Of a stretch of 64,000 nucleotides of DNA, positions 1,498-59,902 are shown one piece after another; position 1 is the first letter of the stretch; each line of letters starts with the position of its first letter. Below the pieces are notes generated by a model. The model made no database searches, was not told where the DNA came from, and was given only the letters and a program-made list of their open reading frames with translations. The DNA comes from Candidatus Reidiella endopervernicosa (GTDB lineage Bacteria; Pseudomonadota; Gammaproteobacteria; GCF-013343005). Location: the NCBI RefSeq assembly GCF_013343005.1, contig NZ_CP054491.1, positions 2,462,501-2,526,500 on the forward strand, written 5' to 3'. The position numbers were made by a program, and so were the translations under genes.

Positions 1498-1932
1498 TCA
1501 ACATCCAGTCCAAAATTAGATCGTTTGCCATTCTAACAGCCTGTTTAGTGGCAATTTAGAGTGAGTAACGACATGTCGCTTAAAGCCAACCCCGCTGACC
1601 GCCATGGAGAGCGAAGTGAGGGCGGTTAGTCCCCGATAGTCGACGCCGTCTGCCTATTCGTAGTTGAGAGCGCGAGCGAACGACGAAGAAGATGCAGCAG
1701 CGGCTTTATGTCGGCGTAGAGTCACTGAGGGAGTTGTGTAGAGCCGCGAAGAGGTGATTACGCAACGTACGCAGGACGGTCGGGGCGCCGCAGGCATAAA
1801 CGGTCGCGTGAAGTATTTGCCGCTTGCTTGGGCTTGGATGCCCAAAACAAACTTTCGCAAAATAGCGACTCCCGGATTTTCATTCATAATGTCTAGGTTT
1901 TGTTATCACCTATTTGTAAGGGACTCCTCCAG
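1498..1932. other. Intergenic region holding repeat copy 1
   Basis: 435 bp between the tadA start and the permease-fusion start. It is mostly occupied by repeat copy 1 (1593-1873). The rest holds only short AT-rich flanks; the ATG at 1933 is preceded by GGGACTCCTCC, a weak ribosome-binding site. I see no gene here: the overlapping open frames are the spurious frames carried by every copy of the repeat. Confidence 0.6.
1593..1873 (-). repeat. ~280-bp interspersed repeat, copy 1
   Basis: Read on the minus strand this begins GGGAGTCGCTATTTTGCG and ends CCATGGCGGTCAGCG, like the other five copies. It contains a 5' hairpin (TGGGC-atccaa-GCCCA), a central region bounded by GCGGCT and AGCCGC, and a 3' hairpin ACCGCC...GGCGGT. 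It is the only copy in this orientation. It carries the GCGTACGTTGCG variant shared with copies 2 and 3. It lies directly behind the tadA start. Confidence 0.93.
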
Positions 1933-4900: not shown

Positions 4901-4949
4901 GAGTGGCCCATTCCAGCCGGGTAGATATACGCTGGAACGTGACGCCTGA
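1933..4949 (+). CDS. ArsP/DUF318-type permease fused to FG-GAP repeats and an ASPIC/UnbV domain
   Basis: A raw-frame break near 2066 is repaired by one C (ACC-CAA-CTT), giving 1005 residues and an exact multiple of three. Residues 1-60 form an N-terminal membrane anchor. About 80-360 form a multi-span permease like DUF318/ArsP, including a cysteine pair in G-V-C-V-N-C-A-A-P-I. About 410-620 and 770-880 hold FG-GAP/VCBS-type calcium repeats (D-I-D-R-D-G-W-Q-D, D-I-D-R-D-G-D-L-D, D-F-D-N-D-G-D-L-D). The C-terminus resembles ASPIC/UnbV (CRTAC1). A Cys-rich insert (4000-4245) separates the two propeller parts. ArsP relatives export organoarsenicals or other thiol-reactive solutes; the substrate here is unknown. 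The ectodomain probably lies in the periplasm. No partner gene is adjacent. Confidence 0.8.
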
Positions 4950-4980
4950 CCGACGAGGCTACTTGATTATTGAGAAGTGG

Positions 4981-6984
4981 TTACTGCTCGTTTTGCTGGG
5001 AACCGCTCTTCTCTTCAATTGAGGGGGACAACGGCCATTTTGAGGTGGTAAAGAAGTGCTCTATCTCTGCAGGCGGCAGCGCCTTGCTGATGTGATAACC
5101 CTGTGCGATATCGCATCGCATCCGATAGAGCTGGCGCATAATGTCTTCGTTCTCGACACCCTCAGCCACCACCATCAACCCCAGGTTATGGGCCAGTTCG
5201 ATCGTTGATTTGACGATAATCTCATCGTCCTTGCTCTTGAGCATATCCATCACGAAGGAGCGATCGACCTTGAGTTCGGTCACCGGCAGTTGGCGTAGAC
5301 GGCTCAACGATGAGTGACCCGTACCAAAATCATCAATCGAGAAGTTAAAACCGATCTCCTGCAGCTGACGCAGCACCGTATTCAGCCGCTGATAGTCACT
5401 CATAAAGATATTCTCGGTGATCTCAATGACGATCCCGTTCGCCGTTGGATAGCGATCCACAATGGCATTCAGCTCAGTAATAAATCCAGGTGCCAGGATC
5501 AGGGTGATCGGTATATTGATCGCGATCTTTACCTCATGGCCCTTCTTAAGCCACTGCTGCCGCTGTTTCAGCGCGGTCTCAATCACCCAGTAACTGAAGG
5601 GGGCGATCAATCCGGTCTGCTCCAACGCCGTGATAAACATATCGGGCGGCACCCAACCACGCTGTTTGTGGTGCCAACGCGCCAGGGCTTCGACTCCGAC
5701 AATATTGCCCGAGAAGAGTGCCACCTTTGGTTGGTAGTGGAGTTCGAACTCTTCTCCATCGAGTGCATTTTTCAGATCACGAACCATGCCCAGTCGACCG
5801 CTGTCGATGCTATCGCGATCTTCATCAAAGAGATGGATGGCATGCTGTTCTCGCTTTGCGGTATTCATCGCCGCATCACCATGTTTAATCAGCTCTGAAA
5901 CCGTGCCACCGTGTTGCGGATAGATGGCAATGCCGACTGTCGCAGTTACCACTACCTCCTGCTGCATCACACGTACCGGATCCTTAATTGAATCGAGTAC
6001 TCGTTCGGCCATCTCGACGGCCCGCCTTTCATCGATGTCACAGAGCAACACGGCAAACTCATCACCCGACATGCGACTCAGGGTATGTTTTGAGGTAAGC
6101 GCGTTGAGATAACGCTTGGAGACAATTTTGAGTAGTTCATCACCACCATCCTGCCCCAGTACATCGTTGATATCCTGAAAACGATTAATATCGACTATCA
6201 ACACCGCAAACGGTAGCCCGCCCTTATCATTCACCGCATCAAGATGTTGGCGAACACGATCGAGAAATAGTGAGCGGTTGGGAAGTTTAGTGAGCTGGTC
6301 ATAGAGGCTCAGGTTCTCCAGCTCCTGGTTGGCCATGCTGAGACGCCGATTAAGATTCTGCAGGGCGTGTTGATAATCCTCTGTAGCACGTCGGGCACTC
6401 TCCACCTCTTTTACGGCCATCGCATTTTCAATCGCAATCGCCACATGTCCGGCAAAGAGTTCGAGCAGTTTCAGGTCGCGTTCGGAGAAGTCACCACCAC
6501 CCTGCTTATCGATACCTGCCAGACCACCGAGAAAGTGTTTTCGTCCGATCAGTGGCACCATAATCAGGGTGCCCGCCTCTTTCTCCCAGCGGTTGCGCTC
6601 CTCCTCTGAGAGTTCAGAGAGCATGCCACGCCACCATGCGCGTTTATGACGCCAGACCCAGCCACAGACGCCAAACTCAATAGGGAGCGATTCACCAACG
6701 ATTTCATCAATATCGCGGCCAGAACCGGCCTGGTAGGTATAGAGGCCACACGCCTCATCAAGAATCGGAATCAACAGGGTTTCAGAACGGATCAGCTCAC
6801 GCGCCCGATCGGCGATTATCTGTAGAACGGTATCAAAGTCGAGTTCACTACCAATCGCCTGCGTGGTTTCACGCAGTAGACTGATCTCATACTCTCGCTG
6901 GGCAAGCTCTTCACGAACGGCCTGTAGCGTTTTCTGATCCGAATTCTCACTCTTTTCAGTCATATCTTCTCGATTGCAACCCAT
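4981..6984 (-). CDS. GAF-GGDEF-EAL cyclic-di-GMP signalling protein
   Basis: A cytosolic protein of up to 667 residues with no membrane segment. A short coiled-coil start leads to a GAF domain (about 45-190), a GGDEF domain (about 230-395) and an EAL domain (about 405-650). The cyclase signature is S-G-D-E-F instead of G-G-D-E-F, and no R-x-x-D inhibitory site precedes it. The EAL domain keeps E-A-L-A-R-W, E-I-T-E-N, D-D-F-G-T-G and A-E-G-V-E, so phosphodiesterase activity looks more secure than cyclase activity. Two starts are possible: 6984, or the ATG at 6963, which has GAGAAG a few bases upstream and is my preference. The neighbouring minus-strand uvrA lies behind it and the permease fusion converges on it. 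Confidence 0.9.
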   Translation of the reverse strand: MGCNREDMTEKSENSDQKTLQAVREELAQREYEISLLRETTQAIGSELDFDTVLQIIADRARELIRSETLLIPILDEACGLYTYQAGSGRDIDEIVGESLPIEFGVCGWVWRHKRAWWRGMLSELSEEERNRWEKEAGTLIMVPLIGRKHFLGGLAGIDKQGGGDFSERDLKLLELFAGHVAIAIENAMAVKEVESARRATEDYQHALQNLNRRLSMANQELENLSLYDQLTKLPNRSLFLDRVRQHLDAVNDKGGLPFAVLIVDINRFQDINDVLGQDGGDELLKIVSKRYLNALTSKHTLSRMSGDEFAVLLCDIDERRAVEMAERVLDSIKDPVRVMQQEVVVTATVGIAIYPQHGGTVSELIKHGDAAMNTAKREQHAIHLFDEDRDSIDSGRLGMVRDLKNALDGEEFELHYQPKVALFSGNIVGVEALARWHHKQRGWVPPDMFITALEQTGLIAPFSYWVIETALKQRQQWLKKGHEVKIAINIPITLILAPGFITELNAIVDRYPTANGIVIEITENIFMSDYQRLNTVLRQLQEIGFNFSIDDFGTGHSSLSRLRQLPVTELKVDRSFVMDMLKSKDDEIIVKSTIELAHNLGLMVVAEGVENEDIMRQLYRMRCDIAQGYHISKALPPAEIEHFFTTSKWPLSPSIEEKSGSQQNEQ

Positions 6985-14548: not shown

Positions 14549-16124
14549 CTACTCCCACTCGATGGTGCCTGGGGGTTTGCCGGTAATGTCATAAACCACG
14601 CGGGAGATACCTGATACCTCATTAACAATGCGGCGACAGACATGATCGAGGAAATCGTAGGGCAGATGGGCCCAGCGGGCGGTCATGAAGTCGATGGTTT
14701 CAACCGCGCGTAGTGCCACCACATATTGATAGCGACGACCATCACCGGTCACGCCAACCGATTTAACCGGCAGGAAGACGGTAAAGGCCTGAGAGGTCTT
14801 GTGGTAGAGATCGTTCTTCAGCAGCTCTTCGATGAAGATGTGATCAGCCAGACGCAGGATGTCGGCGTACTCCTTTTTCACCTCTCCAAGAATTCGTACA
14901 CCCAGCCCTGGTCCTGGGAAGGGGTGGCGATAGACCATGTCGTAGGGGAGTCCCAGCTCAACGCCAAGCTTGCGCACCTCATCCTTGAACAGCTCACGCA
15001 GTGGTTCACACAGTTTGAGGTTCATCCAGTCGGGCAAACCGCCAACGTTGTGGTGTGACTTGATCAGGTGCGCCTTACCGCTCTTGGCCCCCGCTGACTC
15101 GATCACATCGGGGTAGATGGTGCCCTGTGCCAGCCACTTGGCGTTAGAGAGCTTGCTCGACTCCTCCTCGAAGATCTCGACAAAGAGGTTGCCGATGATT
15201 TTGCGTTTCGCCTCAGGATCGCTCTCACCGCTCAATGCATCAAGGAAGCGCTGCTCGGCATCGACACGGATAACCTTCACACCCATGTGCTCGGCGAAGG
15301 TAGCCATTACCTGATCACCCTCTTGGTGGCGCAGCAAACCGTTATCAACAAACACGCAGGTGAGCTGATCGCCGATGGCACGGTGTAACAGTGCTGCGAC
15401 CACGGAGGAGTCAACACCGCCAGAGAGGCCGAGAATCACCTCGTCACTGCCGACCATCTCTCGAACGTGACTGATCTGATCATCGATAATGTTGCCAGAC
15501 GTCCAGAGTCCTTCGCAGCCGCAGATCTGGTGTACAAAGCGCTCAAGAATACGCTGTCCCTGGTTGGTATGGGTCACCTCGGGATGGAACTGCACACCGT
15601 AGAAATGACGTGCTTCATCAGCAATACCCGCAACTGGGGCCGAGTCAGTAGAGGCCATCAGCTTGAAGCCGGGGGCCATCTCAATCACGCGGTCACCGTG
15701 ACTCATCCAGACATCAAGTAGTCCGTAACCCTCGTCGGAGGTGTGATCCTCGATATCCTTGAGCAGCGCGGTGTGGCCGCGGGCGCGGACCTGAGCATAG
15801 CCATACTCATGGTGATCTGCGTTCTCCACCTTACCACCGAGCTGCATGGTCATGGTCTGCATGCCGTAACAGATACCAAGAACCGGGATTTCCATATCAA
15901 ACACACAACTCGGGGCCTGAGGTGCATCCTCAGTCGTGGTCGACTCGGGGCCGCCAGAGAGGATGATTCCGTTGGGATTGAAGGCACGAATATCGGCCTC
16001 CTCCATATCGTAGGCGTTCAATTCGAGTAGACCCCGCCTCACGAACACGGCGGGCAATGAGCTGGGTGTACTGGGAACCAAAGTCTAGAATCAGGATTCG
16101 TTGGGCGTGGATATCGGTCGACAT
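14549..16124 (-). CDS. guaA: GMP synthase (glutamine-hydrolysing)
   Basis: The enzyme makes GMP from XMP, glutamine and ATP. Two missing G residues near 16035 and 16024 split the 5' end. With them restored the gene is 1578 nt, 525 residues, the length usual for gammaproteobacterial GuaA. The N-terminal class I amidotransferase domain has [10 protein letters not shown], the nucleophile in G-I-C-Y-G-M-Q, and F-H-P-E-V. The ATP-pyrophosphatase domain has [10 protein letters not shown]. The C-terminal dimerisation domain ends in P-G-T-I-E-W-E. guaB, its usual operon partner, is about 37 kb away here on the same strand. The gene is essential without exogenous guanine, so the frame breaks are best read as sequencing errors. 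Confidence 0.96.
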
Positions 16125-16454
16125 ACTGCGCGCTCTCTGCAATGCGGTTAAAGCGCAGCAGTATACATTAGGGCAACACGCTCTCACCAACTCCAGGAGC
16201 AATCTCAGCTGTGGCATCGTGATTCAACCAAAGGAAGGAGCTAATTCTTTTACATTTATAAACAACAAGTTAACAACACACACCCATACCAGAGGTCACA
16301 GCCTTTGATTATTAGCAAGACTAATCACCCGCTGGTCGAATTAACATATCAATGCGCTCCCCGTTGACTGCTCCAGCTTTCTAAGACGAGCGATTAGATC
16401 GTCAGTTAACACATGGCCTCTTGAAAGCAGCAAGACCTTGTCATTAATAAACTG

Positions 16455-16735
16455 GGGAGTCGCTATTTTTGCGAAAGTTTGTTTGGGCATCCAAGCCCAA
16501 GCAAACAGCAAAAACTTAACGCGACCGTTTATGCCTACGGCGCCCCGACCGTCCTGCGTACGTTGCGTAATCACCTCTTCGCGGCTCTACACAACTCCCT
16601 CAGTGACTCTACGCCGACATAAAGCCGCTGCTGCATTTCTTTCGTCGTCCGCTCGCGCTCTCAACTACGAATAGGCAGACGGCGTCGACTATCGGGGACT
16701 AACCGCCCTCACTTCGCTCTCCATGGCGGTCAGCG
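16455..16735 (+). repeat. ~280-bp interspersed repeat, copy 2
   Basis: 281 bp, starting GGGAGTCGCTATTTTTGCG and ending CATGGCGGTCAGCG. It lies inside the 3' end of the REC-HD-GYP gene, oriented opposite to that gene. Read on the gene's strand, the flanks would encode A-S-D before it and F-I-N-D-K after it, nearly continuous. It carries the GCGTACGTTGCG variant and one fewer T in the GTTTG-TTT-GGGC run. Confidence 0.94.
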
Positions 16736-16924
16736 GAGGTCACTGGCGAGACCATGCCGCTATTACACTCACTGGGGTTAGCTTCAGGAAGGTCGCGCTA
16801 TCTTCCTCCTCAACTCGCTTATCAAGCAGCCCCTGCATATCGAGCCAAAGGTCGACTATCTCGGGAGCGTAGAGTTTTCCCCGCCACGGGTGATGTACTC
16901 ACGCGCCTCAGCTGCGGAGAGTCC

Positions 16925-17204
16925 GGGAGTCGCTATTTTTGCGAAAGTTTGTTTTGGGCATCCAAGCCCAAGCAAACAGCAAAACTTCACGCGACCGTTT
17001 ATGCCTGCGGCGCCCGACCGTCCTGCGTACGTTGCGTAATCACCTCTTCGCGGCTCTACACAACTCCCTCAGTGACTCTACGCCGACATAAAGCCGCTAC
17101 TGCATCTTCTTCGTCGTTCGCTCGCGCTCTCAACTACGAATAGGCAGACGGCGTCGACTATCGGGGACTAACCGCCCTCACTTCGCTCTCCATGGCGGTC
17201 AGCG
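16925..17204 (+). repeat. ~280-bp interspersed repeat, copy 3
   Basis: 280 bp in the same orientation as copy 2, 189 bp further on, also inside the HD-GYP coding region. The flanks contain GAGAGTC on the left and GAGTCGAGAG on the right, a possible but imperfect target duplication. It is nearly identical to copy 1 (GCGTACGTTGCG, TTCACGCGACCG, CCTGCGGCG). Confidence 0.94.
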
Positions 17205-18250
17205 GTTGAGTCGAGAGCATGCCACTTGCAGTGCGTCGTAATCATTGACCAGAGCCAGGATTCTAGCGCCTAAGGGAATTATCTGCCCTTGAGCTTATCC
17301 GGGAGCCGTTGCCATCAAACTGTTCATGGTGACTGCGGATTAGTTTGCCAGCATCTTGCAGATGATCGAGACTCATCATCAGCCCTCACCGACCATGGGG
17401 TGTTTCATCACCTCCACCTTATCCGCACTCGAGAGTGCATTGTAAGGTTTACCCATCAAACGATCAGGCAACCCTATCTTGCCAATATCGTGCAGTAGTG
17501 CTGCAAAAGCACCTGTCGCGCATCGTCCTCACTCATATCACACTTCTTAGCCAGTACGTGTGCCTGCTCGCGACACGCCGCGAGTGTCCAGCCACACTGC
17601 CCTCACGCATCTCGATGATATTAGAGAAGACCTTGACCGAATTGAGATAACTTCCTTTGAGTGTCTCGTGGGACATCTCTAACATTCCCATCGCCTGCCT
17701 CAACTCTTCGGTACGCGCCTTAACCCTGTCTTCAAGACTTGCATTCAGACTTGCAGATCTTCATTCTGTTTTTGTCAGCTTTAGTAGGCGTTTGTGATCT
17801 TGCTCGAGAAATTTCTGTTTCAGTGCATATTTCACCCCAGTGTGATGTCGTTATCTTCCCAGGGTTTACTAAAGTATTTATATATTTTTCCCTGATTGAT
17901 CGCCGATATAGTCGATTCCATATCAGCGTATCCGGTCAGAAGAATTCGCATGGTGTCGGGCCAGCGTTCCGCTGCCTTAGCGAGAAAGGTTGCACCATCC
18001 ATCACCGGCATTCTCATGTCTGAGATCACCAGATAGACACTATTCTGTTCAAGTACAGCAAGCCCCTCTTCACCATTGTTTGCAGTCAGTATCTTGTAAC
18101 CTAACGGACGAAACAGACGGCGTAAGGATGAGACGATATTCGGTTCATCATCAACAAATAGTAGTGTGGCTGATTGCAAAACCGGCACATCGTCTGTCAC
18201 GATATCGTTACTACCAACAAGATCATTCATCTATTTATCCAGCCCTAACA

Positions 18251-21086
18251 TCAATCAACCGCCTTCGACTCACTCTGCTTAACAGGCAACCAGATCAGGA
18301 ATCGCGTCCCTTTACCAATCTGACTCTCTACAGTGATCGTACCACCGTGTTTCTGAATAATATTATAGGAGAGCGACATACCGAGCCCTGTACCCTCGCC
18401 AACCGGCTTGGTTGTATAGAAGGGATCGAAAATTCGCGCCTGCGTCTGCTCATCCATTCCTTTACCGTCGTCTTCAAACACAATCAAAACCCCATCCCGA
18501 TCAGTCGTTGTATGGATGGTGATCACACCTCGCTTCTCAATAGCGTGTGCCGCGTTAACCAGGATATTCATAAACACCTGATTGAGCTGCGCGATGATGC
18601 ATTCAACCTGTGGCAGGTAGCCATAATCCTATAACTTCTGCCTTATATTTCAGTTCGTTGTGAACGATATTCAGCGTGCTATCAAGTCCTTTATGTAGAT
18701 CTGCCCACTGCCACTCGACCTCATCAACGTGGGAGAAGTCTTTAGATCCTGTACGATCTTCTTAACACGCGTAACCCCTCCTCAGACTCATCCAGGAGAT
18801 CAACCAGGTCCTTTTTCAGATAATTAATGTCAACCTGCTCTTTTTGTGTCTTAATCGCCTCAACCGTGGCTTCATCATTAATCTTGAGTTCTCCCCGTTC
18901 ATATAGTTCTAACAATTTAAACATGTCAGCCATATATTCACGCAGAGTACTGATATTAGACGTAACATAACCGACAGGATTATTAATCTCGTGTGCCACA
19001 CCCGCTGCAAGCTGACCAATACTCGCCATCTTTTCTGACTGTAGTAGCTGGCTTTGTGCATCATGCAGCATCTCATTTGCTTGTTGCAGTTCAGCAATCG
19101 CTTTAGCCAGATAATCTTCTGAGTTTTGCGCTCTGTAATATCTTGAATCACACCTAACATGCGGACAACTTCACCAGACCCATCACGAACAACATCTCCA
19201 ACAACATGTACCCAACGCTGGGTTCCATCATGCAATATGACTCTCATCTCGTAGTCATACCGAACCCCGTCTTTTGCGCCTTTTCAAGACCATCGTAAAC
19301 AATTTTTCTATCGTCTGGGTGAGTAAGACTGGTGTAGTCTTCCACCGTCACATAACGTGCGACCTGTGGATATCCAAGTATAGATGCGGTCAGATCGGAC
19401 CAATAGACCCTGTTAGTCCTTACATCAAGATCCCACTACCTATATGAGCAAAGCTCTGACTAAAACGGAGTCGCTCTTCACTCAAAACAAGTTCCGCTTC
19501 AATTGTCTTTCTATCCGAAATATCACGCATCGATGCAAAAACAGCAATTCATCGCCAACAAACATATCAGTCACACCAATCTCTACATCCTGTATTTCAC
19601 CATCTTTACGTAGAAATGACGTTCTTTCAGACCAGCATTCACTACAGTACTTTCACCCGTATCTACAAACTGTTCAATGAACGACTGATGGCAGTGCCCT
19701 GATCGTCGAGGCATTAATAGATCAACACTCTTACCCACGATTTCTTCAGAAAGACATCCTGTTATCTCTTCTGCTGCTGGATTAAAACCCGGATATCACC
19801 AGCCCCGTCAATGATCACAATACCGTCTCAGCACTCTCGATGACCGTACTAAGAAAGACACTCTTACGCTGCAACTCATCCTGTCGATCATCAAGCTGCA
19901 TCATCATTTTTAATATTATCCGAGAACCTTCCTATCTCGTCACTACCCGAAGGCAATTCAATACCACCCCTACCTTCGGCGTAATCTGCCACACCTTTTG
20001 ACATTAACAACAATGGCCTAACAAGATACCCGTCAGCAACCAAACCGTAAAACAACCAACATCACAAGAGCAATCACGACCAGAAGGATTTTATCTCGAA
20101 TAGAGATAATATCGGTGAAAAGTGAAACATATGGCGTTGATTGTATGATGCTGATATAGCGTTCCGGCATATTTGGATCAAAGTGGACATGCTGAAGATT
20201 AACGACTGATCTCTCCCGCTTTCAGTACTAATTACTTCAGTCTGACTCACACCAACGTGGCCACCATCTATAAGACCCTCGAACTGCGGCAACTCATCTA
20301 GTTCAGAACGGAGTGACGAATAATCGTCATCTAGGTCAACCCCACGCTCTGAACTCATTAGATAATGTTTAGAGTCAGTCGACAGATAGACAACCGAATC
20401 ATCTCGATCAGTTGCAAGAATATCTCTGAGTAATGGCCTGATATCCATATTTATAACAACGACACCAAATGCCTTTCCATCACTATAAATTGGCACCGCA
20501 GCACGAATGACCAGATCTCTATTATGTGACACATTGCTGCTTTCCTGATTAACCTCTATTTCGAGAGAAACACCTGATTCATAGGTTTGGAAAGCGTTTC
20601 TTGAAAGTAGTCGCGGTGTCCTTTTGTGGAAGCCTTGACTCAACAACTGCCACAATCCCCAGATCCTCGCCTAAACGTTCGATTCTAACAATTTCACGAC
20701 CGCCTTCCGCCACACCGATATAACGAATCTGCTTGTAATCAGGTTTCGCTTCAACAAAACGAACAAATATCTGTTCCAGACGTTCACGCCATTGCTGCTT
20801 CGTTGACCCATCAGAGGGATCTAAATCATTATTTTTGATAGCACGAACCAGACCTTGAATGGGGAGTCTTTGCCAGAAACTGAACATCACGAGTTAGCTC
20901 AGATATTTTACCTTGCAAAAGCGCCTTCCCTATGGGTATCGGCCTCTAGCTTGCCGGCCTCATGCTTAATCAGAGCATCCATAGTACCTAGAAAAAGACA
21001 CCTCCGATTGACGCTGAAGTTATCAACACCAGAACAATCGCCATAAAGGCGACCTTGTGACGAATACCGTAGTTTCTAATCTGCAT
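18251..21086 (-). CDS. Cache-HAMP-PAS-PAS sensor histidine kinase (frame-broken)
   Basis: I reconstruct one kinase over several raw frames. The start at 21086 gives M-Q-I-R-N-Y-G-I-R-H-K-V-A-F-M-A-I-V-L-V-L, a first membrane helix. A dCache-like periplasmic domain follows (P-P-I-Q-G-L-V-R-A, W-R-E-R-L-E-Q-I-F, Q-I-R-Y-I-G-V, G-R-E-I-V-R). Then come a HAMP-like linker, a PAS domain near 19850-19680, a PAS/PAC near 19450-19130, and the kinase core: H-box V-A-H-E-I-N-N-P-V-G-Y, N-box N-I-L-V-N-A-A-H-A-I, D-D-G-K-G-M-D, F-D-P-F-Y-T-T-K-P and G-L-G-M-S. It ends 20 bp before the REC-HD-GYP gene, a likely output partner before that gene was broken. Breaks are dense here (at least six), more than elsewhere, so real decay cannot be excluded. 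Confidence 0.7.
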
Positions 21087-21147: not shown

Positions 21148-23914
21148 TCAATCAGCCATGATGGCATCCGCTTCACTCTCAGACTGTGACTCCGGCAACC
21201 AGATACGAAATTTCGTTCCAGACCCAAGCTCACTCTCGACTGAGATCGTTCCGTTATGTTTCTGAATAATGCTATATGAGCGAAAGACCGAGACCCGTCC
21301 CTTCCCAACGGGTTTAGTGGTGTAGAAAGGGTCGAATATTCGTCGCTGCGTCTCCTCATCCATACCTTTGCCAGTATCCTCAATTTCCACCCATACTCCC
21401 TCACGCTCTGTACCCGTTCTAACCGTGATCGTACCGCGCTCCTCAATCGAGTGCGCTGCGTTTACCAGCATATTCATTATCACCTGATTAAGTTGGACAA
21501 TAATGCATTCTATTCTCGGCAGATCCCCATACTCCTTGATCACTTCAGCTTTGTACTTAACCTCGTTATGAACAATATTCAGCGTGCTATCAATCCCTTG
21601 ATGAATATCTGCCCACTGCCACTCATCCTCACCAGCATGTGAGAAATCCTTCAGGTCCTGGACAATTTTCTTAACCCTAATTACTCCCTCTTCCGACTCA
21701 TTCAATAGATCACGAAGATCCTGTTTAAGTTAGTCAAGATCCAACTCTTTCTTTAGTCTGATTATCTCATCAGCAGATGCATCATCACTGATCATCTGTT
21801 CGCACTGTTCATAGAGTTGCAGCATTTTAAACAGATCATTGAGATAGTTCCGCAGAGCACCAATATTAGATGTGATATAACCGACTGGATTATTTATCTC
21901 ATGGGCAACACCGGCTGCCAGTTGTCCAATACTTGCCATCTTTTCTGATTGTAGTAGCTGCGCCTGTGCCTCTTGCAGCTGTTTTATAAGTGCTGCTTGC
22001 TCCTCCTTTTCATTGATCAGTGCCTTTTCGGCCGCTCTCTGCAGGGTCATTTCACGCATGATGACGGTATACATCGGGTGGCCTGCGATATTTTGCTTTG
22101 ACACACTTGCACCGGCCGGAAACTCACTACCGTCTTTTCGTTTTCCTGCCACTTCAGAGCGAGATTCCATCGATTTATAGTCATCAGTCGATGTAGCAAA
22201 CCGTTCTACATGCTGCCTATGACCAGCAACAAATCGTTGTGGCAACAAAACTTCCAAAGGCTGACCGATCGCTTCATTTCGGCTATAACCAAAGATCGCT
22301 TCAGCCCTTTATTGAAGACCACAACATGCTGACTTTCATCAAAACAATTATCGCCTCTGGCGCAATATCAAGAATACTTCGTAATCTCGACTCACTCTGC
22401 AGATACTCCTCTTTAGTCTCATTAAGTTGGATTATCGTCTGCTTTAAAACCGAATTATTGACAGACAACTCAGACTCTATTCGTTTTCTTCGCGTTATAT
22501 CCTCAACCATGCCCAGCATCTGACGTGCATCACCTTGAGTATCTCGTATTACGTCACCACGCATATGCAACCAGCGCTCGCTCCCGTCAGACCACAAAAC
22601 GCGGTGCTCTTGATCGTACTCAACGCCCTGCGACAGACACTCATCTATACCTGCTAACATCACAGCTCGATCATCTGGATGCAAGGTATTCTGTAAATCC
22701 TCAAGTGTGATGGTAGAGACACCCTGTTGCAGTCCCAACATTGGGGCAACGCGTTCAGAGAGCACGATCACTCCGGTATCAACATCCCAGTCCATCGTGC
22801 CAATATTGGCAAAACCAGACTTATACGAAGCCTCTCTTCACTGAGGATTAGCTCATCTTGTGCCAACTGCAGTTTGTCGAGTAACCGTCGCTCCTCCGCC
22901 TTCTCTGCCTTTAACTCCTCTAGCGCCTCAATACGTTGAGATATATCGGTGTGAGAGCCCGTCAGCCGTACAGAACCACCATCCTGCGCACGACTTGCCA
23001 ATCCACGACAGTGGATCCATGCGTAGTTTCCATCTTTTCGTTTCAGACGATATTCAATTTCAAACTGTTCGCGCTCACCCTCCATATAGTCAGCCCAGAT
23101 AGAGAAAGCGCCCGAGATCGTTAGCGTGCACGAGATCGCGCCAATCGACAAAGCTATTTCTAACTCATCATCCGCATATCCAAGCATCTCTTTCCAGCGT
23201 CTCGAAAAGTAGATCTCGTTAGAAGTAAGATCCCAATCCCAGATACCATCATTGGCTCCTCGCACAGCCAACGAGAAGCGTTCACGGCTCCTCTCAATAC
23301 ACGCTCCGACTCAATACGCTCTTTGTCATATCGCCTCACCACAACAACCACAAAAAGAGAAATAACAGCAACCACCACACAGAACATAAGAATTGCCGAC
23401 ATCTCACGACGCAACTTATAGGTTCGAGACTTATAAGCACCAACCAGTTCATTGCTAGCCTCGGTTAAACGAGCGGTACTTTCTTTGAGATTTTGGTAAG
23501 ACTTTTCTATTTCGATCTTTGATGTGGAATGCATTGAGATATTTTCGATAACTGGTCTTGTCTCTTTCCATATAGCCTTGAGTGCAAGCAAATTGAGCAG
23601 CACCGTGCCTGGTACACGAGTCATCTCAACTGATTCATTAACCACGCCACCGTTCTCGAGAATATTCAGCGTCAACTCATACTCTTCAACCAAGTCCAGC
23701 AACTTTCCTCGTTGACCTGCATGCCCCATAACAATGACCATATGTGCCGTTGTATAGATCTGCTGAGAGAGCATTCGCTGACTCCTGCAAGATTGATAAA
23801 GTCAGCATCGTTGGCGGTATTATTCAGGAATATATTAAAAGCCAAAACGCAAGAAGCGCACCTACACCAGGCAGTAGAAACAGCAAAATTACTGCTCTTG
23901 TTATATTTTTTCAT
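21148..23914 (-). CDS. PilJ/NarX-type sensor, multi-PAS histidine kinase (frame-broken)
   Basis: The start at 23914 (M-K-K) leads into a hydrophobic helix. A periplasmic PilJ/NarX-type domain follows, recognised by F-I-N-L-A-G then, one frame over, Q-R-M-L-S-Q-Q-I-Y-T-T-A, with a second membrane helix near 23400-23330. Three PAS/PAC units follow (near 23270-22930, 22800-22500 and 22400-22050, the last with P-A-G-A-S-V-S). The kinase core has the H-box V-A-H-E-I-N-N-P-V-G-Y, N-box N-M-L-V-N-A-A-H-S-I, D-T-G-K-G-M-D and F-D-P-F-Y-T-T-K-P. Its catalytic part is closely similar to that of the next kinase, so the two are paralogues. PilJ-type sensors bind small ligands such as nitrate in NarX; the ligand here is unknown. 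Several frame breaks are present. Confidence 0.7.
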
Positions 23915-58092: not shown

Positions 58093-58359
58093 TCTAAAGA
58101 AAGGCAACAGGTGACAGGCTAGATGCAAAACTCAAGATCTGATCCCGTGCTTTCCCAGAGGCTTTGTTGTTTATGGCCTCCAAGAGGCAGACTCCACTCT
58201 CAAACTTGCAAACACCCACATCACTGGGTAATTTCCACATAACCCTGCCAGCCTTAAGGGATGAGACCCAATTGAATGGATGCAGCAAACCACCACTTCG
58301 TACTTTGGCCGAATATCACAATAAATGTGCAGATCACATAATCATCTGTTAGCTTTTCC
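58093..58359. other. Gene-free stretch between the FKBP gene and repeat copy 4
   Basis: About 270 bp with only short unconvincing frames on both strands. Composition shifts here from the GC-rich housekeeping run to an AT-rich accessory patch. Confidence 0.4.
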
Positions 58360-58639
58360 GGGAGTCGCTATTTTTGCGAAAGTTTGTTTTGGACATCCAA
58401 GCCCAAGCAAACAGCAAAACTTCACGCGACCGTTTATGCCTGCGGCGCCCCGACGTCCTGCGTTCGTTGCGTAATCACCTCTTCGCGGCTCTACACAACT
58501 CCCTCAGTGACTCTACGCCGACATAAAGCCGCTGCTGCATCTTCTCCGTCGTTCGCTCGCGCTCTCAACTACGAATAGGCAGACGGCGTCGACTATCGGG
58601 GACTAACCGCCCTCACTTCGCTCTCCATGGCGGTCAGCG
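58360..58639 (+). repeat. ~280-bp interspersed repeat, copy 4
   Basis: 280 bp from GGGAGTCGCTATTTTTGCG to GGCGGTCAGCG. It carries GCGTTCGTTGCG (shared with copies 5 and 6, not 1-3) and a G-to-A change in the 5' hairpin (GGACATCC). The AAGGAGAG that serves as ribosome-binding site of the membrane-protein gene at 58651 begins at its last bases, so an insertion here abuts that gene's start. Confidence 0.94.
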
Positions 58640-59047: not shown

Positions 59048-59053
59048 CCGTCG

Positions 59054-59333
59054 GGGAGTCGCTATTTTGCGAAAGTTTGTTTTGGGCATCCAAGCCCAAG
59101 CAAACAGCAAAAACTTAACGCGACCATTTATGCCTACGGCGCCCCGACGTCCTGCGTTCGTTGCGTAATCACCTCTTCGCGGCTCTACACAACTCCCTCA
59201 GTGACTCTACGCCGACATAAAGCCGCTGCTGCATCTTCTTCGTCGTTCGCTCGCGCTCTCAACTACGAATATGCAGACGGCGTCGACTATCGCGGACTAA
59301 CCGCCTTCGCTTCGCTATCCATGGCGGTCAGCG
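59054..59333 (+). repeat. ~280-bp interspersed repeat, copy 5
   Basis: 280 bp, GGGAGTCGCTATTTTGCG to GGCGGTCAGCG, inside the membrane-protein gene. It carries GCGTTCGTTGCG like copies 4 and 6, and shares CGCCTTCGCTTCGCTATCC near its 3' end only with copy 6. It has its own variants (GACCATTTATG; TATCGCGGAC). Confidence 0.94.
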
Positions 59334-59338: not shown

Positions 59339-59636
59339 ATATTGTGGCTATCTGTATTGGGCTTAATCTTTGCAGTGGCGGTTTCGTCCTATATGGCTAA
59401 TCCACTTAATAATATTGTTTCAAATTGGATTACACCTCTTTTGGTATTGTCGCAAGTGCAACGCTGCCTATTTTCTTTACCGAGATAACCTCCGATATAG
59501 TCAAAACAGGACTCGAAAATTTCAGGGTTGGTGGGAGTGTTCAAGCTTCAGTTCATAAAGTAGACAATGGGAAGTAATAAAATCCGAAAGCTTCTTTTGC
59601 TTACTCCGCAATATGCTTACCTACGAGAGGATGTCG

Positions 59637-59902
59637 GGGAGTCGCTATTTTTGCGGAAGCATGTTTTGGGCATCCAAGCCCAAGCAAGCGGCAAATACTT
59701 AACGCGACCGTTTATGCCTACGGCGCCCCGACTCGTCTGCGTTCGTTGCGTAATCACCTCTTCGCGGCTCTACACAACTTCCTCACTGACTCTACGCCGA
59801 CATCTTCTTCGTCGTTCGCTCGCGCTCTCAACTACGAATAGGCAGACGGCGTCGACTATCGGGGACTAACCGCCTTCGCTTCGCTATCCATGGCGGTCAG
59901 CG
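59637..59902 (+). repeat. ~280-bp interspersed repeat, copy 6 (internally deleted)
   Basis: 266 bp. It is the most divergent copy (GCGGAAGCATGTTTT at the 5' end; GACTCGTCTGCG). It lacks 16 bp (ATAAAGCCGCTGCTGC) in the middle, removing one arm of the central inverted repeat. 16 is not a multiple of three, which speaks against a conserved peptide. It lies 59 bp after the end of the broken membrane-protein gene. Confidence 0.93.

Follow-up and report, generated by a model that had tools for sequence, protein, structure and literature searches.

Insertion sequences of the IS200/IS605 type insert as single strands into the lagging-strand template; they have hairpin ends and a tetranucleotide beside the left end (PMC6006769). 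Members such as IS608, ISDra2 and their non-autonomous derivatives leave no target duplication, lack terminal inverted repeats, carry subterminal hairpins at both ends and show a flank constraint at the left end only, where a tetra- or pentanucleotide is fixed. The REP, BIME and REPIN sequences, which are mobilised by RAYTs, are non-autonomous hairpins of 20-65 nt with a GTAG/CGTC tag, and are present in hundreds of copies per genome in Gammaproteobacteria. The elements of HEARO or omega RNA (IscB) and of reRNA (TnpB) consist mostly of a large structured RNA, occur as stand-alone copies and also leave no target duplication. IStrons couple a group I intron to mobility of the IS605 type.

Here we describe a repeat of about 283 bp (281-284 bp) from Candidatus Reidiella endopervernicosa, six copies of which lie in the window (the whole 64-kb stretch of DNA that was analysed). 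The repeat resembles IS200/IS605 elements in leaving no target duplication, in lacking terminal inverted repeats, in its subterminal hairpins at both ends, in a flank constraint at the left end only and in its lagging-strand bias. However, it fixes one target base instead of four or five, its conserved fold spans its full length, and neither tnpA nor tnpB lies inside or adjacent to it. It resembles REP and REPIN sequences in its copy number and in the RAYT-type Y1 genes of its host, but it is far longer, its left end has a CGCTG hairpin and no GTAG/CGTC tag, it freely interrupts genes, and it does not flank the RAYT genes seen. It shares a largely RNA-like fold, stand-alone copies and the lack of target duplication with HEARO, omega and reRNA elements, but differs from them in fold and ends, in having no Rfam match and in the lack of a TnpB zinc ribbon in 11 carriers. 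Like IStrons, it combines a structured, RNA-like fold with IS605-type mobility; unlike them, it has no group I core and lies in both orientations relative to genes. We consider it a probable non-autonomous element of the single-strand type, whose targeting is unusually relaxed and whose conserved fold is elaborate. It appears to be undescribed in Rfam and in the literature searched, a search that included the element's own sequence and had subscription journals mostly outside its range; an earlier description elsewhere is possible. The passages found in the paper on the closed Endoriftia genome do not describe it.

An HD-GYP gene split by two copies of the element

The interrupted gene encodes an HD-GYP response regulator, lies on the minus strand and is read from position 18230. 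Its receiver domain (17832..18230) is an open reading frame and is 66% identical over 110 aa to that of L040, an uninterrupted orthologue of 449 aa from another gammaproteobacterium that adjoins the same type of histidine kinase. The receiver domain is followed, all on the minus strand, by the frameshifted linker and HD-GYP pieces (17205..17831), an element copy of 283 bp (16922..17204), an HD-GYP segment of 186 bp (16736..16921), an element copy of 284 bp that splits the HD-GYP C-terminus (16452..16735), and the C-terminal piece of the gene (FINDKVLLLSRGH...LIC*; 16341..16451). The copies were located by blast to the element core. The linker, the HD-GYP pieces and the middle segment were identified by tblastn with L040 and L041, and the last piece is an open reading frame that aligns to the L040 C-terminus. 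In tblastn, the L040 matches follow the order receiver domain, linker, HD-GYP pieces, with the copies between them, which agrees with the order given in the initial annotation. Two paralogous histidine-kinase genes (18631-19069 and 21539-21979; 73-80% DNA identity) adjoin the HD-GYP gene.

For the junction test, the ends of the copies were fixed independently, from the genome of the Escarpia symbiont. When copy 16452-16735 is skipped, the flanks read in one frame as GLASDL^FINDKVLLL, where the orthologue has LSRDLVHFDGMLLL. When copy 16922-17204 is skipped, they read as CSRLN^LSAAEAREYI, where the orthologue has LVDGTFTDEEARTYL. Both restored joins align with L040, and the near-continuous passage from A-S-D to F-I-N-D-K that had been noticed earlier is thus a true in-frame join. 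The initial annotation had also proposed that the element inserted into a once-intact gene, and had suggested a comparison with the orthologue of a relative lacking the repeats. L040 carries no insertion, and this orthologue together with the in-frame joins supports the proposed insertion. Exact gene interruptions of the same kind occur in an independent genome, that of the Escarpia symbiont. Insertion of a copy would be expected to inactivate the host gene that it interrupts.

The two copies have the same orientation and are about 97% identical to each other, and their flanks are different. The structured strand of copy 16452-16735 is the minus strand, where it reads 5'-C(CTC)|CGCTGACCGCC...; its right flank is GAGG. 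The right flank of copy 16922-17204 is GTTG. Both flanks are thus NNNG, and both copies obey the site rule of the family, a G at +4. As they stand only 186 bp apart, the element can indeed land twice within 200 bp, as had been suggested.

Outside the repeats, the HD-GYP gene contains more frameshifts; guaA (14549-16217 of the window) is also frameshifted, near its N-terminus, with single bases missing. These frameshifts suggest that the assembly probably carries single-base indels. Thus, the left end of each copy in the Reidiella genome is uncertain by 1-2 bases.

Copies and carriers

The other four copies in the window lie at 1593..1876 on the plus strand, in the opposite orientation to the remaining five, and on the minus strand at 58357..58639, at 59051..59333 and at 59634..59902. 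All four were found by blast to the core. The last is divergent (88% identical, 266-268 bp). To estimate the copy number in Reidiella, we extrapolated from a systematic sample of 464 kb, which contained 45 full-length copies and no truncated ones; this gives about 334 copies per 3.45 Mb. Related elements were found in 32 of the 369 Gammaproteobacteria genomes sampled. Their carriers include the endosymbionts of Lamellibrachia and Escarpia tubeworms, Thiocapsa, Thiorhodococcus, Ca. Thiodiazotropha and other Chromatiales. Matches on plasmids of Methylobacter and Methylomonas are partial; viral contigs gave two matches, and the phage records searched gave none. The repeat, which splits genes and makes up 2.7% of this bacterial genome, extends from deep-sea tubeworm symbionts to purple sulfur bacteria and methanotrophs.

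In the symbiont of Escarpia laminata, a 281-bp version occurs in at least 40 copies, with 100% identity among them. This identity suggests a recent burst of activity. A reduced genome of about 1.0 Mb (G314) has at least 40 copies of the left-end hairpin region of a related element (loci L241 and L244).

Ends, target site and precision of insertion

In the Escarpia symbiont, the element extends from CAAGTGAGTC to GGCAGCG, and the left flanks of its copies are unrelated to one another. The two ends, C(A/C)(A/G)... and ...CAGCG, do not form an inverted repeat. Past the right end, position +4 is G in 29 of 29 copies from the Escarpia symbiont, in 83 of 84 diverse copies and in 45 of 48 Reidiella copies, and the fifth base is seldom G. 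On the structured strand, this rule reads as C at -4, ahead of the left end (5'-CNNN|CGCTG...). The three bases between the fixed C and the element vary, even among identical copies.

The initial annotation had expected a target duplication, and this part of it did not hold: none was found in the 48 Reidiella copies when every flank offset was compared, and none between the identical Escarpia copies. Because assembly indels blur a joined-ORF test in Reidiella, we used the accurately assembled genome of the Escarpia symbiont instead. When the flanks were joined at offsets of 0, +3 or -3, at least 45 codons were open on both sides in 17 of 29 cases, compared with only 5-10 of 29 at other offsets. 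As judged from these flanks, the restored frames show that the element inserts precisely, with no bases duplicated, added or lost, and that its sole strong site requirement is a C at -4.

The interrupted genes of the Escarpia symbiont lie in the same orientation as the element in about 11 cases and in the opposite orientation in 6. One of them is lpxC of the Escarpia laminata symbiont, which is split by an identical copy (L249/L077, about 4935-5215) and has an intact frame when joined. By eye, we take other joined Escarpia and Lamellibrachia proteins to be an RND efflux pump, an agmatinase and, in the Lamellibrachia barhami symbiont, the product of a restriction specificity gene.

Orientation and replication strand

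GC skew usually marks replication direction, and we took the direction from skew rather than from a mapped origin. In Reidiella, the sign of the skew switches near 0.5 and 2.2 Mb. In the regions of negative skew, 24 sampled copies are on the plus strand and 4 on the minus strand; in those of positive skew, the numbers are 2 and 15 (P = 1.2e-6). Among the best-matching Reidiella copies listed, they are 25/4 and 0/14 (P = 4e-8). In the Escarpia symbiont, the bias has the same direction (7/2 vs 4/14; P = 0.011). The bias persists whichever strand carries the interrupted gene (9:1 and 5:1). Thus, with replication direction given by skew, the structured strand, 5'-CNNN|CGCTG, preferentially lands as the lagging-strand template.

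A model for mobilisation of the element

Based on these results, we propose that this repeat of about 283 bp is mobile but non-autonomous, and that it is probably moved as single-stranded DNA by a putative tyrosine HUH enzyme of the IS200/IS605 type. Precise insertion with no duplication, a flank rule on one side, hairpins at both ends and a lagging-strand bias are together the signature of Y1 HUH transposition. In our model, a Y1 HUH enzyme would mobilise the element in trans, and a single-stranded DNA circle would be the intermediate. This circle would then insert, as the structured strand, into the lagging-strand template directly after CNNN. Repeated insertion of this kind would have filled the genome with the roughly 330 copies that it has now, including the two inside one HD-GYP gene. 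Taken together, the strand bias and the one-base rule would mean that single-strand DNA transposition also operates on an element almost without site specificity.

Y1 genes were found in 19 of the 20 genomes searched, and Reidiella has three, all of the REP-associated type. Its genome contains neither a reverse transcriptase (RVT_1) nor an IS91-type (Y2) transposase, and the TnpB zinc-ribbon domain was found in 0 of 11 carriers, Reidiella included, in a search with positive controls. However, none of the Y1 genes is linked to the element or has its ends, and no IS200 TnpA is recognisable in the Reidiella genome. Carrier G143 gave no Y1 match, and the three Y1 matches of carrier G314 are all fragments. 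Other points also count against Y1 mobilisation: the single fixed target base, the replication direction read from skew, and the interior, which is conserved well past the ends and folds more elaborately than a transposon end requires. Finally, one REP-associated Y1 gene of Reidiella is itself split by an element copy (L047:1017-1300), at what appears to be an in-frame join, within the 1-2-base uncertainty of the left end.

A conserved fold and the possibility of a functional RNA

The left-end hairpin of copy 16922-17204 (CGCTGACCGCC...GGCGGTTAGTC on the structured strand; 17166..17204, minus strand) has a stem of 10 bp with three compensatory pairs. These three middle pairs covary across 24 sequences, with 96% of cells paired. 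CGCT sits between the putative cleavage point and this hairpin, and subterminal covarying hairpins are present at both ends of the element. In a consensus fold built on 16 diverse full-length elements, nine helices contain 53 pairs; 25 of these pairs have compensated two-sided changes, and 96% of cells are paired. None of 500 shuffles was equally good, and slid registers came nowhere near. Three parts make up the fold: the hairpin at the left, a large middle that branches and is closed by CCCC-GAU/GGUCGGGG, and a hairpin at the right end that is branched as well. At several positions, G-U pairs are fixed in 12-16 of the 16 sequences. These nearly fixed pairs argue that the fold is selected on the structured strand and not on its complement, and the single-sequence fold agrees (z = -2.4 for the structured strand, -1.1 for the other).

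Conservation of the interior beyond the ends fits an RNA that has a job, as in IscB and TnpB elements, and the fold possibly reflects an RNA-guided partner. It is therefore conceivable, though we hold it only tentatively, that the element carries a functional structured RNA, a guide or scaffold like omega RNA or reRNA, and that an unrecognised RNA-guided protein acting in trans aids its spread or persistence. The pairs conserved across the whole element and the fixed G-U pairs of one strand both speak for this. There is also a precedent, as RAGATH-18 RNA proved to be the guide RNA of TnpB (PMC11061315). However, Rfam gave no match at either gathering or permissive thresholds, HEARO and group I and group II introns included, and no promoter-like site was found in the element copies. 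The lack of a TnpB zinc ribbon in the carriers is a further point against it. A search of 10 carriers for RRXRR (IscB) gave no matches, but its controls were silent as well. We also regard as unlikely the bolder idea that the repeat represents an undescribed class of mobile structured RNA, a multi-domain RNA of about 280 nt, shared and conserved among Gammaproteobacteria, whose gene would copy itself into single-stranded DNA at the replication fork with one-base specificity and the help of an unrecognised, possibly RNA-guided partner. A covarying fold confined to one strand raises the question of which protein uses it.

Other explanations

A retroelement is improbable. Group II introns are also known to show a lagging-strand bias and to insert without target duplication, and the complex covarying fold would suit a degenerate group II intron, or something similar, that enters DNA by reverse splicing at replication forks. 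However, the genome lacks RVT_1, Rfam recognises no group II intron in the element, and identical copies lie at unrelated targets. An ordinary MITE that depends on a DDE transposase would likewise be short, non-coding and present in high copy number, with its target duplication hidden by decay. This is very doubtful, and refuted as far as sequence allows, because even recent copies that are 100% identical have no duplication, the ends are not inverted repeats and the strand bias is strong.

Self-splicing was considered because of the split lpxC, which is usually an essential gene and is interrupted exactly and without loss. An intron or IStron that is harmless inside genes could explain this, but an intron works in one orientation only. 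The copies lie within genes in both orientations, an arrangement that a spliced RNA would not tolerate, and group I and group II matches are absent. Moreover, reading through 281-284 bp would put the frame out or introduce stops. We therefore rejected this explanation as highly improbable. That both HD-GYP copies were misplaced in an assembly with many single-base indels is scarcely credible, because the two differ in sequence and in flanks, both follow the site rule, and the orthologue's frame is restored at both junctions.

Arrangements of copies at other loci

We note two further arrangements of copies. Two genomes of different families (L032 and L033) share an RND-pump region that contains one element copy, which suggests that the region moved horizontally together with the element. 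At L013:1505-2069, two copies lie head to tail with zero spacer (CAGCG|GGGGAGTC), as if one copy had inserted precisely where the other ends.
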